This document shows positions 498-9,747 of a stretch of DNA of 10,771 bases, piece by piece (position 1 is the first letter of the stretch; each line of letters begins with the position of its first letter). The position numbers and the translations under genes were made by a program. The notes under the pieces were generated by a model. It did not search any database, was not told the origin of the DNA, and worked only from the letters and a program-made list of their open reading frames with translations. Source of the DNA: Bacillota bacterium (lineage in GTDB: Bacteria; Bacillota_C; Negativicutes; JAEYSJ01); assembly GCA_023434855.1 (NCBI GenBank), contig JAEYSJ010000189.1:1-10771 (forward strand), written 5' to 3'.

Positions 498-1706
498 ATG
501 GCGAAAACAAGCAGTAAGCGGCCTTGGATTTTAGTATTATTAATGGTTGCAGCAGTTGTACTGTATTTTCAGGTACCGAAGAATGATGTGCAGGAAGTAA
601 ATAAGCCTTACACCATCGAAAAAACGGGTGCCGGGGTAGTAGTTGACTTTACGGCAACGTCACGGAAAATTCACTCAGCCGTAGATGGGGGGCTGTCCAA
701 AACCGGGTTGACTGCGCAGGATGTTAAGGAAAGTAGCAGGGAACAACCGCGACAGGGGGTAGAGGGAGTTATCCGCTGGCATTCACGGCAGATAATGGTA
801 AACATCCCTGCAGATGCGTCCCTGGAAGGGATTGAACAGACTTTAGCCGGGCAGGTGCGGAATGCGGGCGGGGAAATATTAGCATCTCAGCCTGATAATT
901 ATGAAGGACTGCCAGTCGTTCGTCTGGACATTGGTGTGCGCGACACGTTGGCCGGTGATCCATTAACCATTATAGCCGACCGTCTGTATATAACTAAGGA
1001 AAAGGCAGCCGGTACCGCTAAAAAATCGAAAACAAGTGGCCCGGTGCGCGGTGAATTGGCAATAATTATTGACGATTTTGGCTATACAAGGGAGCCAATA
1101 GGGGCATTTGCCGCTATTGAACGTCCACTGACCTTTGCTGTACTCCCATATCGTCCTTATAGCAATGAAGCGGCGGCGCGCGGGGTGAGTTCAGGGCATC
1201 AGGTAATGCTGCATTTGCCGCTGGAGCCCTTAACGACAGCTGAACAATCGGAAGAGACGACCATAACCGTTACTATGAGTGATGAGGAAATAAAAAGCAG
1301 GACAGCCAGGGCAATTAATTCTATACCCGGCTTAATTGGTGTTAACAATCACCAGGGGTCGCGGGCTACGGCAGATCACCGGGTAATGCGTCTGGTGCTT
1401 GGTGTAGTTAAGGCTAATAACTTATTTTTTGTGGACAGTCGGACGAACAGCCTGTCGGTGGCCGGCGAAGTAGCCAGACAAATGTCTGTGCATACTACGG
1501 ATAATGAATTATTTATTGATAACAGTAATGAAGTCAGTGCTGTTAAAAAGCAGCTGCATGCTGCCGGAGAAATGGCTGCACGTTATGGGAGCGCCACGAT
1601 AATTGGTCATGCCAGGCTAAGCACGGCCACAGCCGTTCAGGAAATGATACCTGAACTGGAAGCTAGCGGTATAAAGCTGGTATTTGTCTCGCAGATTGTT
1701 AGATAA
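498..1706 (+). CDS. Divergent polysaccharide deacetylase (YibQ/COG2861 type), membrane-anchored
   Basis: The 402-residue product starts at an ATG 7 bases after AGGAGA. Residues 9-25 form one hydrophobic segment after a basic N-terminus, so the protein is probably exported and held by an uncleaved anchor. Residues ~40-180 are a poorly conserved linker region. Residues ~185-400 match the divergent polysaccharide deacetylase domain (Pfam Polysacc_deac_2). The visible motifs are AIIIDDFGY with Asp192-Asp193, MLHLPLEP (237-244), NNHQGSRAT (283-291) and VDSRT (312-316), the usual metal and active-site regions of this fold. The last motif reads IGHAR (369-373), where many relatives have a His-Pro. 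The substrate is unknown, though a role at the cell envelope is expected. The family is common in diderm bacteria, often near peptidases or envelope genes; here the gene stands alone. Confidence 0.88.
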   Translation: MAKTSSKRPWILVLLMVAAVVLYFQVPKNDVQEVNKPYTIEKTGAGVVVDFTATSRKIHSAVDGGLSKTGLTAQDVKESSREQPRQGVEGVIRWHSRQIMVNIPADASLEGIEQTLAGQVRNAGGEILASQPDNYEGLPVVRLDIGVRDTLAGDPLTIIADRLYITKEKAAGTAKKSKTSGPVRGELAIIIDDFGYTREPIGAFAAIERPLTFAVLPYRPYSNEAAARGVSSGHQVMLHLPLEPLTTAEQSEETTITVTMSDEEIKSRTARAINSIPGLIGVNNHQGSRATADHRVMRLVLGVVKANNLFFVDSRTNSLSVAGEVARQMSVHTTDNELFIDNSNEVSAVKKQLHAAGEMAARYGSATIIGHARLSTATAVQEMIPELEASGIKLVFVSQIVR

Positions 1707-3773: not shown

Positions 3774-3853
3774 AATATATGTAAGCTTGGGCAGGGATAA
3801 AAGGAATAAATAGCGAAAATAAACAGAACTATTTTAAATGGAGAGTGACTTTT

Positions 3854-4189
3854 ATGTTATGGGAAAAGGAATTTGCCGGATCTGTGACAGTCTGTGATAC
3901 CGAAGGGGTTATTCTGGAAATGAACGATAAAGCCTGCGAAACTTTTGCAAAGTATGGCGGGCGGGATTTAATCGGTAAAAATCTGTTAGACTGTCATCCT
4001 GAACCGTCACGTACCAAATTGCTGGAAATATTGAAAAATGAGACAACTAACAGCTATACTATTGAGAAAAACGGCATAAAAAAGCTTATTTACCAGGCAC
4101 CATGGTATAAGGATAAGAAATATGCCGGACTGGTTGAATTATCGCTGGAAATACCTTTTGCTATGCCGCATTTTGTTAGAAAGCCATAG
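3854..4189 (+). CDS. Small single-PAS-domain protein
   Basis: The 111-residue product starts from ATG 3854, placed after GGAGAGTG; a GTG at 3845 in the same frame overlaps that site and is less likely. Almost the whole protein is one PAS fold. A first strand (VTVCDTEGVILEMNDKAC, 11-28) leads into the helical part, with FAKYGGRDLIGKNLLDCHPEP (31-51) being a typical PAS turn. The last strands include IKKLIYQAPWYKDKKYAGLVEL. No output domain (kinase, cyclase or HTH) is fused and no membrane segment is seen, so it may act as a stand-alone sensor or partner protein. Ligand unknown; His48 and Cys47 are possible heme or metal contacts, but this is a guess. It is probably cotranscribed with the DUF3786 gene 38 bases downstream. 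Confidence 0.82.
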   Translation: MLWEKEFAGSVTVCDTEGVILEMNDKACETFAKYGGRDLIGKNLLDCHPEPSRTKLLEILKNETTNSYTIEKNGIKKLIYQAPWYKDKKYAGLVELSLEIPFAMPHFVRKP

Positions 4190-4215
4190 AAAGTGGATCA
4201 AAAAGCATAGAAAGT
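4185..4215. repeat. Short direct repeat at the PAS gene end
   Basis: CATAGAAAGT occurs at 4185-4194, across the stop codon, and again at 4206-4215, 21 bases later. It may be a small local duplication in the spacer between the PAS and DUF3786 genes. Confidence 0.5.
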
Positions 4216-4227
4216 TGAGGGATTGCT

Positions 4228-4893
4228 TTGTCACAATCTTCAAATTATCGTATTGCCTTTGATGTCGCAATGAAAGGGGTTAGAGGTACCGAACCGGAGA
4301 GAATTGCGCGCAATGCCGGCGTGGAATACAGGGCCTGTGAACAGCAATATATAATACCCTTTTTTCAGCAAACTCATATTGTAGACTGTAAAAAAGGTGA
4401 AGTTGTTGAACAGGATACCGGACGCAAGAGTGCTTTAGGTACAGGGGTAGTTATTCTAAACTATTTGCGTACTGCCGCGGATTGGCCGGTGGATAACCGA
4501 CTGATTTCCCTTAAGGAAGTACCTAACGGCGGCATGATTTTCTATCCTGCTTTCAAAAATCAAGTGATCGATTCATTGATAGCCGACTTTCAGTATGATG
4601 TGGCTGCATTGGAGCCTGCTGCGATTCGTCTCGGCGGTCAAATGGTGAAAATGGGCCATGCCGCTGCCCGGTTTCAGGCTTTGCCCAAGATCGCGCTGGC
4701 GGTTGTATTATGGGGCGGCGATGACGAAATGGCTGGCTCGGCCAATGTTTTGTTCGACCGGTCTGTTGGCGATTTTTTGCCTGTTGAGGACATTATTGGG
4801 TTAGGTTATTGCTGTGCTCATAAACTAATTAAGTATCACGGTTTGGCACAGGGAAGGGATGTTTTCGACTCGTTCTGGGATAGCACAGACTAA
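4228..4893 (+). CDS. DUF3786 domain protein
   Basis: The 221-residue soluble protein starts at TTG 4228, 6 bases after GAGGG. The C-terminal half has the hallmark stretch of DUF3786: LPKIALAVVLWGGDDE followed by a segment ending in LFDRSV (152-180), then LPVEDIIGLGY. The N-terminal half holds WPVDNRLISLKEVPNGGMIF, also typical. Cys37, Cys54 and the pair Cys195-Cys196 could bind metal, but there is no Fe-S domain as in the longer DUF3786 proteins. The family is found mainly in strict anaerobes and has no established function; links to corrinoid or iron-sulfur chemistry have been suggested by context only. It follows the PAS gene at 38 bases and is probably in the same transcript. Confidence 0.85.
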   Translation: MSQSSNYRIAFDVAMKGVRGTEPERIARNAGVEYRACEQQYIIPFFQQTHIVDCKKGEVVEQDTGRKSALGTGVVILNYLRTAADWPVDNRLISLKEVPNGGMIFYPAFKNQVIDSLIADFQYDVAALEPAAIRLGGQMVKMGHAAARFQALPKIALAVVLWGGDDEMAGSANVLFDRSVGDFLPVEDIIGLGYCCAHKLIKYHGLAQGRDVFDSFWDSTD

Positions 4894-4896
4894 TGC

Positions 4897-5055
4897 TAAC
4901 CGCCAAGGGCGCCAAGAACGCCAAGGATTCTTATTGTTTCTACTTAAGAAAATTTTTGCCTCGGCATGCAAGATGCTCCTAAAAAGAGGAAAGCATCCTA
5001 GTAATTATAAATATAATCCAATGTTTCTTGGCGCACTTGGCGTCCTTGGCGGTTA
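4897..5055. repeat. Inverted-repeat element made of 9-bp CGCCAAGGA units
   Basis: The left arm 4897-4927 is TAAC followed by three 9-bp units (CGCCAAGGG, CGCCAAGAA, CGCCAAGGA). The right arm 5025-5055 is its reverse complement at 27 of 31 positions and is also built of three units. The ~97-bp centre is AT-rich and non-coding. Frames through such repeats give peptides like NRQGRQERQG or TAKDAKN, which are spurious. A further partial copy sits at 8285-8306. I take this as a dispersed non-coding repeat; it could fold into a long hairpin after the DUF3786 gene. Confidence 0.8.
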
Positions 5056-5097: not shown

Positions 5098-5119
5098 GCC
5101 CGCAATAGCGGGTTTTTTT
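5098..5119 (+). terminator. Rho-independent terminator of the PAS-DUF3786 unit
   Basis: The stem CCCGC (5099-5103) pairs with GCGGG (5108-5112) around an AATA loop, followed by seven T (5113-5119). The T-run overlaps the end of the convergent TtcA-like gene. On the minus strand no T-run follows the hairpin, so it should act mainly for plus-strand transcripts. Confidence 0.85.
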
Positions 5120-5897
5120 ATTTGCGCCAGAAGGCGATATGCTTGGTCAGCATTTCTTCCCGCGACAGCTTTGCAGGCCATAGTTCTGTAGAGGGGCTGG
5201 TGCGCATGGCCGAAGACAAGTGAGTATAGGTCAATTGATTATCTTGTTCCATGTGATGGATCATGTCTTTGATTTCCTGGCGCTTGGTGCGGCCGTTGTA
5301 CGGACAGGGGCTGGGAATGGGGGTGAAACCATGGATTTGTGGTGTGCCGCATAGTTCAGATTCGCGGAAATAAATAAGCGGGCGGATTACGGTAAGTCCG
5401 GTGCGGTCCAGGTAGGTTTTCGGCAAAAAGGTTTTCAATTGTCCTGAATATAAGATGCTCATCAAAAAAGTTTCCACTGCATCATCATGATGATGGGCAT
5501 AGGCAATTTTATTAAACCCATGCAATGTGGCAAACTTGTTTATCGCGCCCCGCCGAAAAAATGCACAGCTAAAGCAGGGGTCGTTATAGTTATTGCGGGC
5601 AATGATCCCCGCGATATCCACTTGCTGGGTATAAAAAGGAATGTCCAGATCAGTGCAGAACCTGGCCAGTCCGGATGTATCAAAATCGGAACTGAACATT
5701 GGATCAAGGGTGATTACGGCAAGTTCAAACTTATGGTCTTTACGGTCCCGCAAAAAGGCCAGGGCATAGGTAAGAAACAGGCTGTCCTTGCCTCCGGACA
5801 AGCCTATTAAGATTTTATCACCGTCCTCGATCATATCAAATTCGACTATGGCCCGGCACAGCCTGCCAAAGAAATTTTTCGGCAAGAGTTTCTTCAT
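5118..5897 (-). CDS. TtcA-like PP-loop ATPase / Fe-S tRNA-type sulfurtransferase
   Basis: The 259-residue product starts at ATG 5897, 10 bases after AGGAG; the frame is open further upstream, but that would overlap the previous gene. The N-type ATP pyrophosphatase signature SGGKDS is at 34-39. CFSC (Cys108, Cys111) and a third Cys198 in SPCPYNGRTKRQ match the three cysteines that hold the [4Fe-4S] cluster in TtcA. HHHDDAVETFLMSILYSG (135-152) is the typical adjoining motif. TtcA adenylates C32 of certain tRNAs and inserts sulfur to make 2-thiocytidine. The protein is somewhat shorter than E. coli TtcA and may be a paralogue with another target. It is the third gene of the minus-strand operon, 17 bases after the DUF4130 gene, which raises the chance that it works with that pair. 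Confidence 0.85.
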   Translation of the reverse strand: MKKLLPKNFFGRLCRAIVEFDMIEDGDKILIGLSGGKDSLFLTYALAFLRDRKDHKFELAVITLDPMFSSDFDTSGLARFCTDLDIPFYTQQVDIAGIIARNNYNDPCFSCAFFRRGAINKFATLHGFNKIAYAHHHDDAVETFLMSILYSGQLKTFLPKTYLDRTGLTVIRPLIYFRESELCGTPQIHGFTPIPSPCPYNGRTKRQEIKDMIHHMEQDNQLTYTHLSSAMRTSPSTELWPAKLSREEMLTKHIAFWRK

Positions 5898-5914
5898 CTT
5901 GTCATAACTCCTGT

Positions 5915-6742
5915 TTATGTATTTTTTTGACAATCGGGGGAATTTAGCAATGCCGCGCTGGAGCCAGGCAGCTTTGTTGGGAGATTTTTCTCTGCGCAGC
6001 CAAACTCTGTCATGTATTTCCAGTAACGCTTTGGCATGTGACTCATGCGGCACTCTGGGTTGTACCGTCCCTGTATCGCAATGGTATCATAAAACAGCTG
6101 CCACAGTTCGCGGAATGTTTGTTCTTCCTCATCTGCCGCCGGCAGTTCAAGGGATTCGATAGGAATGATCGCCGACTGATAAGGCTGATACACCAGGCCC
6201 ATGCCATGGGTTTTATCGTGGATCAAAAAACGTTCTTCGGGATAACGCTCGCAAAAATGCTGCACTAAGAGTGGCAGTACGTAATTTTTTGGCTCTATTT
6301 CGCCGACGAGAACGTTATTAACTATGGAAAACCGCAGGAAACCTTTTAATAGATGACTTTCCCTGTCTAAATGTTTAATTGCTTTAAAGAGTGTATTCAC
6401 CACGTTGTCTGTCAGCATATTCATTACAGCAGGACCGTGGCGGAACCCAAGTCGTAGAAATAACAGGATGCATAACTCTTTTTCAACAAGACAAGTCAAA
6501 AAGGCACGCCGAACAAAATTAAGCGCCGAAGCTCCCAGCTTTTTGGGAATGGAAGTCAATACCCGGCCTGCTTTTTGCAAATCTGTCGGTATCTCCTTTG
6601 TGGGAAAGAGCAGGGGTTGACATGCATCGGGCGTAAGAATATTCACCGGAATTTCTTTCTCTGCATAACTTTCAAAAACGCAGCACAACAAACCATCGAG
6701 ACTTCCGTCATAGCGATAAATCAGGTCTGACTTGTTAAGCAT
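5915..6742 (-). CDS. DUF4130 protein (TIGR03915 type), partner of the radical SAM DNA-repair candidate
   Basis: This 275-residue protein starts at an ATG 10 bases after a perfect GGAGGA. Its start overlaps the end of the radical SAM gene by 22 bp, indicating translational coupling. Recognisable conserved parts are the N-terminus YRYDGSLDGLLCCVFESY (9-26), HLLKGFLRFS (130-139), a strand region FLIHDKTHGMGLVY (172-185), and the C-terminal signature RYNPECRMSHMPKRYWKYMTEF (226-247). In about four in ten members, as I recall, this domain is fused to a uracil-DNA glycosylase-like domain (TIGR03914); here that domain is absent and the protein ends ~28 residues after the signature. No catalytic function is known. 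Constant pairing with the radical SAM protein implies the two act together, probably on nucleic acid. Confidence 0.88.
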   Translation of the reverse strand: MLNKSDLIYRYDGSLDGLLCCVFESYAEKEIPVNILTPDACQPLLFPTKEIPTDLQKAGRVLTSIPKKLGASALNFVRRAFLTCLVEKELCILLFLRLGFRHGPAVMNMLTDNVVNTLFKAIKHLDRESHLLKGFLRFSIVNNVLVGEIEPKNYVLPLLVQHFCERYPEERFLIHDKTHGMGLVYQPYQSAIIPIESLELPAADEEEQTFRELWQLFYDTIAIQGRYNPECRMSHMPKRYWKYMTEFGCAEKNLPTKLPGSSAALLNSPDCQKNT

Positions 6743-8046
6743 TTTAGTATATCCTCCTGTGGTAAAGGCAGCATCGGCGGCTGATCAAAAAGAGAAAGTT
6801 GTTCAGTCTGCAAGGAGAAATCCGCATGAAAGCGTTCCAGAGTTTTTTCGGAAAACAAAGAGCGGAGCATTATGTTTTGTGAAATTTTCGGGCTAGCTGC
6901 TGGTTTTCCGGCAGTGGTAATAAAATACTGTGCTCGCTTGAGGACAACTCCCAGTTTTTTCAAGCCTTCAAAATGGAGAACTGTTGTACGGCGGGCGGTA
7001 AGAATTCGTTTGGCACTGGTTACGCCGATGCCAGGCACTCGCAGCAAGTCCTGATAGGGAGCACGGTTCACATCAACAGGGAAAAACTCCAGGTGATTGA
7101 GTGCCCAGTTGCATTTAGGATCCAAATAGGGATTAAAGCTTTGATGCTGCTGATCGAGAAGCTCGCCGGCGGAAAAGCCGTAAAACCTGAGCAGCCAGTC
7201 CGCCTGGTAAAGACGGTGTTCACGCCACAGCTGCGGTTTTACATCTAATGCCGGCAAAAGACTATCATCAGCTACCGGCATATATGCAGAAAAAAAGACG
7301 CGTTTGAGTTTATATTTTTTGTAAAGACCTTCTGTTAAATTCAAAATTTGAAAATCTGTGTCCGGTGTAGCACCGATAATCATCTGCGTACTTTGTCCTG
7401 CGGGAACAAATTTTGGTGTATGGCGGTACTTTACAATGTCGCGTGAATTTTCCTCTATGCGGTTTTGAATATAGCCCATGGGTGCAAGAATCGAATGCTT
7501 TGACTTGTCCGGAGCCAGCATTTGCAAACTATTTTGCGATGGCAGCTCAATATTCACACTCATCCGGTCTGCCAGCATACCGAGGCGGGTTAAAAGAGAA
7601 CTGTCTGCTCCAGGGATTGCTTTGGCATGAATATATCCCGAAAACCGGTACTCCTCCCGTAAAATTCGCAGCGCCTCAATCATTTGTTCACATGTATAGT
7701 CCGGATTTCTCAGTACGCCGGAGCTCAAAAAAAGGCCTTCAATGTAATTCCGGCGGTAAAAATTAATGGTCAGCTCAGCTAATTCCCGTGGTGTAAAGGA
7801 AGCCCGCGGCGTGTCGTTAGTCAAACGGTTAACGCAGTATTTGCAATCATAAACGCAAACATTTGTCATGAGTATTTTTAACAGGGAAATGCAGCGTCCG
7901 TCTGCCGAAAAGCTGTGACAGATTCCACAAGCTGCCGCACTGCCGATTCCACCGGCAATTGTTTTTTTGTCAACCCCGCTCGAGGTGCAGGCCACATCAT
8001 ATTTTGCTGCATCGGTTAAAATTTTCAACTTATCAAAAGCATCCAC
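6721..8046 (-). CDS. Radical SAM protein with HhH domain, putative DNA repair/modification (TIGR03916 type)
   Basis: The protein is 441 residues from GTG 8046, 9 bases after GGGAG. A TTG at 8055 in the same frame touches the Shine-Dalgarno site and is unlikely. Cluster motif CVYDCKYC (Cys64, Cys68, Cys71; CX3CX2C) binds the [4Fe-4S] cluster that splits S-adenosylmethionine. Extra cysteines at 20, 40, 43 and 52 precede it, in the conserved N-terminal YDVACTSSG and ACGICHSF segments. The barrel spans ~55-290. Residues 327-380 contain a helix-hairpin-helix (LLRVPGIGVTSAKRIL, 334-349), a DNA-binding motif. The low-complexity tail carries QLSLF (416-420), the consensus sliding-clamp-binding peptide. 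It heads the operon with the DUF4130 and TtcA-like genes. The family is uncharacterised experimentally to my knowledge; a DNA-related role is inferred. Confidence 0.93.
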   Translation of the reverse strand: MDAFDKLKILTDAAKYDVACTSSGVDKKTIAGGIGSAAACGICHSFSADGRCISLLKILMTNVCVYDCKYCVNRLTNDTPRASFTPRELAELTINFYRRNYIEGLFLSSGVLRNPDYTCEQMIEALRILREEYRFSGYIHAKAIPGADSSLLTRLGMLADRMSVNIELPSQNSLQMLAPDKSKHSILAPMGYIQNRIEENSRDIVKYRHTPKFVPAGQSTQMIIGATPDTDFQILNLTEGLYKKYKLKRVFFSAYMPVADDSLLPALDVKPQLWREHRLYQADWLLRFYGFSAGELLDQQHQSFNPYLDPKCNWALNHLEFFPVDVNRAPYQDLLRVPGIGVTSAKRILTARRTTVLHFEGLKKLGVVLKRAQYFITTAGKPAASPKISQNIMLRSLFSEKTLERFHADFSLQTEQLSLFDQPPMLPLPQEDILKCLTSQT

Positions 8047-8126: not shown

Positions 8127-8155
8127 ATTATACAGCCAAAACATATGTTTGGCAA
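8127..8155 (-). promoter_or_regulatory. Sigma-A promoter of the radical SAM operon
   Basis: On the minus strand, -35 TTGCCA (8155-8150; 5 of 6 consensus bases), a 17-bp spacer and -10 TATAAT (8132-8127; perfect). Transcription would start near 8120, leaving a ~75-nt leader before the GTG at 8046. This is the best promoter match in the window. Confidence 0.8.
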
Positions 8156-8166
8156 ACATATGTACT
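8138..8166. promoter_or_regulatory. 23-bp palindrome with two SOS-box-like sites, over the operon promoter
   Basis: Bases 8141-8163 form a perfect palindrome with 11-bp arms (ACATATGTTTG and its complement) around one central base. Within it, two sites 15 bp apart resemble the Bacillus LexA box CGAACATATGTTCG: AAAACATATGTTTG (8138-8151) and CAAACATATGTACT (8153-8166), each identical at 11 of 14 positions. They cover the -35 and part of the spacer of the minus-strand promoter, so a bound protein would repress. The outer G/C bases of the Bacillus box are missing, so another dimeric regulator is possible. Confidence 0.6.
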
Positions 8167-8177: not shown

Positions 8178-8284
8178 TTTTTATAAGAATAAAGTAAGAA
8201 GGATGGTGAAGAATATATATTGAACGAATTCAGAAAAATGTGGTCCTGAGCAAGAAAAGCTCTTTGCTGGTAAGAAACTCCATG

Positions 8285-8306
8285 TTTTTGGCGTCCTTGG
8301 CGGTTA
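8285..8306. repeat. Partial copy of the CGCCAAGGA repeat
   Basis: The minus strand reads TTAACCGCCAAGGACGCCAA, the same end and two 9-bp units as the arms of the element at 4897-5055, in the same orientation as its right arm. No matching second arm is found nearby, so this is a solo or decayed copy. It lies in the 322-bp gap between the operon and the HMA-like gene. Confidence 0.75.
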
Positions 8307-8368
8307 AAAATTCTTGATGTATCCAGCCATGTTCCGTCTCAATATATGCAGAATACGGAGGGATGATA

Positions 8369-8780: not shown

Positions 8781-9677
8781 CTATTGTTGTTCAGTCATAG
8801 GATGGTTTGTCAAATAGTTCCAGAATAATTCCATACAAGTCGGCAGTAAAGGCGGGCTGGCGACGGCGTAAAATTTACGTTCGATTTTAAAGTTAGCTAA
8901 TTCGATGATGCGGAGGCGGCCGGACAGAAGCTCTTCTTCTACGGCCCATTTGGAAATAAAGCCAATGCCTATGCCATTTAGGATTGCAGCTTTCAATGCC
9001 TCATTGCCGGCAACCTGCAGTATAATATTTAATTGCTCATTGCTGATGCCATGGGATGTCAGCGCATTTAATACAGCACATCTTGTGCCGGAAGAAGATT
9101 CGCGCAACACAAACGGATAAGTCAGGATCTGGGCCAAAGTCGGATTTGGCTGTACGCTGAATTTTGGAGAGGCGACCAGGATAAGTTCATCCTGCCATAA
9201 CGGACGGCTGGTAAAGGCGTCGTCAGGTCTGATGCCGACAATAGCCAGGGGGAATTTACCATTCTGATAAGCCTGTAAGATGGACATACTGTCCCCTGTC
9301 TTTAGAGAAATTTTTAGACCTGGATGTTGTCGCAAAAAATCGGCCAACAACCCAGGTAAAATGTATTCTCCTGGAATAGTACTGGCGCCAATAATTATTT
9401 CCCCTGCGGCACCTGCAATTAAAGCCTTAATCTGATTTGCTGTTTCAGTGAAAATGTTATCAATTTTACAGGTATTGGCGTATAATTTTTCTCCGTAAAC
9501 GGTTAATGAGACTCCCTTGGCTGTTCTGGTAAACAATGGACAGTCAAATTTTTTTTCTAAATTATCAATATGAAAGGATACTGTTGGTTGGGTAAGACCG
9601 AGCTTTTTAGCTGCGGCGGAAAAACTTTTTTCTTCTACTACGGTAAAAAATACGGAGAGGGAATGTAAATGAGACAT
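8781..9677 (-). CDS. LysR-family transcriptional regulator
   Basis: The 298-residue product, normal for the family, starts at ATG 9677, 6 bases after AGGTG; the GTG at 9686 in the same frame overlaps that site. The winged HTH is at the N-terminus (FFTVVEEKSFSAAAKKLGLTQ through TVSFHIDNLEKKFDCPLF, ~10-49). The effector domain begins at ~93 with GEIIIGASTIPGEYILPGLL, a stretch shared by the CysL-like and selenium-metabolism-associated LysR subgroups, and contains the second-subdomain segment GIGIGFISKW. The effector and target genes cannot be told: no divergent metabolic gene is next to it, and its own upstream neighbour runs in the same direction. Confidence 0.9.
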   Translation of the reverse strand: MSHLHSLSVFFTVVEEKSFSAAAKKLGLTQPTVSFHIDNLEKKFDCPLFTRTAKGVSLTVYGEKLYANTCKIDNIFTETANQIKALIAGAAGEIIIGASTIPGEYILPGLLADFLRQHPGLKISLKTGDSMSILQAYQNGKFPLAIVGIRPDDAFTSRPLWQDELILVASPKFSVQPNPTLAQILTYPFVLRESSSGTRCAVLNALTSHGISNEQLNIILQVAGNEALKAAILNGIGIGFISKWAVEEELLSGRLRIIELANFKIERKFYAVASPPLLPTCMELFWNYLTNHPMTEQQ

Positions 9678-9747
9678 CTGGTTCACCTCGCTAAAGCAAT
9701 ATTCGGCAAGACTAGGACATTTCCCTGTATTGAAGCAAGTTAAATGT

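Follow-up and report, generated by a model that had tools for sequence, protein, structure and literature searches.

Why should a gene for a TtcA-like thiolase, probably one acting on tRNA, stand directly behind two genes of a putative DNA-repair pair? The question is raised by a stretch of 10,771 nucleotides from a Negativicutes genome (Bacillota bacterium, contig JAEYSJ010000189.1), which we call the window. Its minus strand encodes, in reading order, a radical SAM (S-adenosylmethionine)/helix-hairpin-helix (HhH) protein of family TIGR03916, rSAM_link_UDG (6721..8046, GTG start at 8046, stop at 6721), a DUF4130/TIGR03915 putative DNA-repair protein (5915..6742, ATG at 6742, stop at 5915) and a TtcA-like PP-loop, iron-sulphur (Fe-S) thiolase (5118..5897, ATG at 5897, stop at 5118). 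The first two genes overlap by 22 bp and 17 nt separate the stop of the second from the start of the third; coordinates and family scores confirm here what the first-pass annotation of this DNA had described. The spacing suggests that a single promoter serves all three genes. We propose, with a probability of roughly 0.55, that they form an SOS (LexA)-controlled DNA-repair operon ending in a TtcA-family thiolase, which in relatives is the only one of the cell.

LexA-box-like operators upstream of the pair

A sigma-70-like promoter (TTGCCA-17-TATAAT, 8127..8155, minus strand) with 11 of 12 consensus matches lies upstream of the radical SAM gene. Same-strand promoter-like sites inside the three-gene unit reach 9 or 10 of 12, and the best promoter-like site detected in the window for the linked TtcA-like gene is that of the pair. 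The promoter is overlapped by a tandem LexA-box-like operator (8139..8165, minus strand), made of two 12-mers 15 bp apart, each with 6 of the 8 core positions. We scored boxes against GAAC-N4-GTTC, i.e. eight core positions, which is the LexA box of B. subtilis as given in PMC4234289. A tandem as good as that of the window arose in 4 of 2000 shuffles of the region and in 34 of 5000 random windows.

The relatives carry boxes closer to the consensus. A box matching 7 or 8 of the 8 positions lies upstream of the radical SAM gene in 22 of the 23 type A Negativicutes rows, the type to which the window belongs, and in 53 of the 61 remaining type A rows. Negativicutes also have a second, more distant type of pair (type B), whose radical SAM protein is ~45% identical to that of type A. 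There, the box was found in 12 of the 12 rows first scanned, and in 14 of 15 after the addition of three loci whose start could not be mapped in the first scan (L134, L136 and L143); one further locus, L150, has no upstream sequence. The window not counted, 36 of 37 Negativicutes relatives have at least a 7/8 box upstream of the pair, and in 24 of the 37 a second box stands at a spacing of exactly 15 bp. The second 14-mer of the window operator is identical in two of them (L132 and L133). Boxes of this quality occur in 97 of 1120 random windows, and the control scan found the box at lexA (19/19) and at recA (19/20). Upstream of unlinked TtcA-like genes a 7-of-8 box was found in none of 30 distinct regions (40 rows minus 10 duplicates), where 2 to 3 would be expected by chance.

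Given the conserved LexA-box-like operators of the relatives and the weaker tandem over a good promoter in the window, SOS induction of the pair is probable. Among the members of the core Gram-positive SOS regulon, PMC7739468 counts a radical SAM protein that it does not name.

The radical SAM/DUF4130 pair

Both proteins score well above the curated cut-offs of their families (662.3 bits against 343.5 for TIGR03916, 239 against 112.25 for TIGR03915), which bears out the identity that the first-pass annotation had given to the pair. The radical SAM protein has the CxxxCxxC motif, and its cysteines C63, C67 and C70 are invariant among 46 aligned relatives, as are C42, H43 and C51. Its HhH part scores 26.7 bits with HHH_3, just short of the Pfam gathering value of 27, and has a weak ComEA-related match in the PDB (E 0.096). 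The DUF4130 protein (275 aa) matches PF13566 at 168.7 bits (cut-off 27), the sole Pfam family detected; no uracil-DNA-glycosylase (UDG) domain was found on it, a PDB sequence search with its profile gave chance matches only, and homology with the DHH phosphoesterase superfamily (DHH/DHHA1 fold), to which RecJ, Cdc45, NrnA and PAP phosphatase belong, was not established.

The two genes keep close company. We searched genome contigs with the first protein, and in the best 80 of the 430 resulting loci a DUF4130 gene lies downstream of the radical SAM gene on the same strand in all 80. The four type B radical SAM proteins that were scanned all exceed the TIGR03916 cut-off; their DUF4130 partners match TIGR03915, yet under its cut-off. 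On an Azospirillum plasmid the radical SAM gene adjoins a DUF4130-matching gene whose annotation is UdgX family.

Three Clostridia loci (L260, L261 and L262) have radical SAM proteins ~50% identical to type B, and in the flank fetched for them none of three DUF4130 queries detected a partner. In seven genomes (G101, G144, G148, G160, G181, G211 and G232) the radical SAM protein matched as two pieces in one frame of 504-563 aa, which suggests an inserted protein stretch. Searches with the DUF4130 gene of the window (5915-6742) also returned 11 phage and 16 plasmid records, some of them labelled Acinetobacter phage MD-2021a.

What might the pair act upon? We found no papers on TIGR03916 or on UdgX with radical SAM, and no account of the chemistry of this widespread pair in the literature searched. 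COG4277 we take to be the TIGR03916 kind. In Bacteroidetes, PMC8565304 predicts SOS control of a two-gene operon of UDG (COG1573) and COG4277, and it cites SOS reports for UDG-COG4277 in Verrucomicrobia and Alphaproteobacteria. As in the window, a UDG-linked gene stands there beside COG4277 under predicted LexA control, but the second gene of the window has no UDG part, a TtcA-like gene is added and the boxes follow the Gram-positive GAAC-N4-GTTC pattern. The LexA-like operators, the reported SOS control of UDG-COG4277 and the UdgX-annotated pair of Azospirillum together make DNA the very probable target of the pair, as had been thought when the window was first annotated.

DUF4130 itself is termed a predicted mutagenesis-related enzyme, and radical SAM proteins linked to it are called SplB-like, in PMC3765255. 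The window protein has no NCBIfam match to the SplB family at E 1e-3. A fold search returned LipA and HydE as first matches; SplB is absent from the matches listed, which leaves a SplB relationship possible.

The TtcA-like thiolase

The third protein scores 162.2 bits with NF007972 (TtcA), under the equivalog cut-off of 272, and 67.3 bits with PF01171. Aligned with E. coli TtcA (b1344, tRNA cytosine(32) 2-sulfurtransferase), it matches the SGGKDS PP-loop, the CxxC and the third cysteine, but in the CNLC of the E. coli enzyme only the second cysteine is matched; the position of the window gene behind a repair pair is another difference. Among solved structures, phmmer matched it to the U34 tRNA thiolase 6scy, TtuA and TilS; the closest of these, 6scy and TtuA, are Fe-S tRNA thiolases. 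The motifs are identical between the linked and unlinked copies compared. The product of the third gene is a TtcA-like thiolase that probably acts on tRNA. In P. aeruginosa, ttcA is stress-induced, by H2O2, according to PMC6082896, and this provides a precedent for stress control of a TtcA-type enzyme.

Linkage of the thiolase to the pair

How often does the thiolase accompany the pair? We sampled 300 Negativicutes genomes, to which the genome of the window does not belong, and counted pairs by their radical SAM gene (E 1e-60) and thiolases at E 1e-30. A TtcA-like gene is found in 180 genomes, with a single match in 179 of these, and the radical SAM gene in 98. The two occur together in 41 genomes, fewer than the 58.8 expected if they were independent (odds ratio 0.33, p ~1e-5, a value that is a guide only since the sampled genomes are related). 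The TtcA-like gene lacks a radical SAM match in 139 of its 180 genomes, and the radical SAM gene lacks a TtcA-like match in 57 of its 98. Co-occurrence below expectation implies that each gene set can do without the other.

Within the 41 genomes having both, the TtcA-like gene lies downstream of the pair in 14, beside type A or type B. Its position was listed for 35 of the 41, and the linkage check covers these, the other six being weak matches. In the 14 linked genomes it begins 764 to 946 bases past the radical SAM match and is the sole match at E 1e-30; no TtcA-like gene was seen within 5 kb in the other orientation among the genomes with listed positions. The rough chance of such linkage in one genome is below 0.001. 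A TtcA-like match is present in seven of the 15 type B genomes, each time linked to the pair. Across the 15 linked loci, window included, the gap between DUF4130 and TtcA ranges from a 4-nt overlap (two loci) to 83 nt. This repeated, operon-tight linkage with two types of pair makes a benefit possible.

Confinement of the linkage to one species, which the first-pass annotation had named as a ground for doubt, is ruled out by these 14 genomes, whose flanks are varied and whose pairs are of both types. A TtcA-like gene lies near the pair in 3 of the 80 best radical SAM loci and none was seen in the other 77, a few of whose contigs end just past DUF4130 (L025, L068 and L077). None was seen either in 30 Clostridia loci with flanks of ~1.5 kb, some shorter (L267 and L283). 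These are the best 30 from 245 Clostridia genomes searched, 101 of them positive for the radical SAM gene, and sampling beyond Negativicutes is thin.

History of the locus

The three genes might be neighbours simply because an old locus (pcrA, pyrophosphatase, pair, TtcA, Lrp, aminotransferase and deacetylase) was passed on whole, induction of the thiolase by DNA damage being useless. We regard this as possible, though rather unlikely. In its favour, a recurrent order is visible: pcrA, sometimes a LysR gene, a pyrophosphatase-like gene, the three genes, Lrp, an aminotransferase and a convergent deacetylase, although individual loci lack one member or another. The names pcrA, Lrp, gcvT, aminotransferase and pyrophosphatase were given by eye from the sequence; in one locus (L006) the pyrophosphatase frame matched PF01368. 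Related flanks surround loci with all three genes, loci with the pair only (L005, L016, L141, L145 and L146) and loci with TtcA only: of the 20 unlinked TtcA loci that were fetched, 10 have TtcA beside the same pyrophosphatase and lack the pair. These flanks point to one old locus thinned out by lineages, and the low co-occurrence of radical SAM and TtcA-like genes also fits such inheritance. Two loci (L132 and L133) have a different setting, between gcvT and a LysR gene.

Trees of the TtcA-like proteins qualify this account. The linked label needs 4 changes on the best tree, against a shuffle average of 12.8, so that linked rows are clustered; 2 changes are forced by well-supported branches and 0% of the bootstrap trees have a single one. 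Operon-linked genes as one clade are thereby ruled out, while one origin of the linkage with later losses fits the tree. Well-supported clades mix the types of pair: L135 and L136 (type B) group with L147 (type A), and five type A rows accompany L134 (type B). Type A and type B pairs inside the same well-supported TtcA clades make it seem that the pair was exchanged while TtcA stayed, which, together with the complete linkage in type B genomes having a TtcA-like gene and the operon-like gaps that were kept, argues against mere inheritance of gene order. Our reading is that the linkage is old and that the pair beside TtcA was exchanged while TtcA stayed, repeated joining being the alternative.

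The placement of the window protein is unsure, with unlinked rows (95/90) in the large tree and with linked L132 (87/87) in a smaller one. In the smaller tree, from which two wrong-frame Clostridia rows were excluded, L138 is separated from the other 15 by E. coli and Clostridia rows (81/71, weak, midpoint root). A TtcA-like family restricted to Negativicutes is unsupported, given these intervening rows.

The window itself keeps the LysR gene, the three genes and the deacetylase, with extra genes interposed. The LysR regulator gene (8781..9686, minus strand, from family scans) and the convergent PF04748 polysaccharide deacetylase gene (498..1706, plus strand, from a Pfam match) are conserved flanks, which relatives keep in the same order. 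With a score of 248.7, the LysR protein falls short of the 250 set as cut-off for the selenium-metabolism LysR family. Between the three-gene unit and the deacetylase, 3845-4893 holds a PAS-domain gene and, after it, a DUF3786 gene; L136 has, between TtcA and the deacetylase, a gene that by eye appears similar. Copies of an inverted repeat of the CCGCCAAGGACGCCAAG type flank the unit on both sides (4897-5055 and 8284-8307), and positions 1-95 hold tandem repeats, three overlapping 47-nt copies at 24-nt spacing. A PADLOC run called no defence system.

Discussion

How would an SOS-controlled repair operon ending in a tRNA thiolase work? Upon DNA damage LexA would leave the tandem operator and one message would be made. 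The radical SAM/HhH protein would bind DNA through its HhH part, and its Fe-S cluster would with SAM yield a 5'-deoxyadenosyl radical acting on the damaged base. The DUF4130 protein, the constant partner of the radical SAM protein, would probably be a nucleic-acid-binding subunit. The TtcA-like protein would adenylate and thiolate tRNA, at C32 or a similar base; it would merely be raised under damage and take no step in the repair chemistry.

Several observations weigh against this proposal. Taken as single sites, the boxes of the window do not exceed chance expectation (35 found against 38.3 expected), and the window is the sole type A Negativicutes row under 7/8, with 6/8. No LexA box was found upstream of the pair at L134. 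Under a stricter 10-position score several relatives are left without a box, and many single loci are marginal relative to shuffles. Thiolation of C32 is a guess, since the TtcA-like protein scores under the curated cut-off. Finally, operon-tight linkage with two types of pair exceeds what mere cotranscription requires.

The SOS response of Negativicutes may drive an Fe-S sulfurtransferase and a repair pair on one nucleic-acid substrate, e.g. in sulfur-marking or sulfur-assisted repair of DNA bases, or in a damage-induced tRNA thiolation serving repair; we consider this doubtful. A little more doubtful still is the three-part system suggested in the first-pass annotation, in which the TtcA-like enzyme would give sulfur to the DNA handled by the pair, or thiolate it, or serve an extra cluster of the radical SAM protein. 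The recurrence of the linkage speaks for it. Yet most genomes having one of the two gene sets lack the other, the Clostridia loci examined show no linkage, each of the 14 linked genomes has just its linked copy at E 1e-30, the linked copies form no clade, and the structure model is unsure (pLDDT 40-49) around C42-C51. That the pair itself acts on RNA, the thiolase being a clue to its substrate, has in its favour the superfamily of tRNA thiolases to which the linked gene belongs, but is very improbable given the UDG/UdgX association, the SOS control of relatives and the LexA-like operators.

The conserved LexA-like operators before the pair in Firmicutes lend further weight to the view that it is a genuine SOS repair unit. 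With them, the substrate of the pair becomes testable with DNA-damaging agents. If the operon is as we propose, a tRNA thiolase under the operator of the pair would couple tRNA modification directly to DNA damage.

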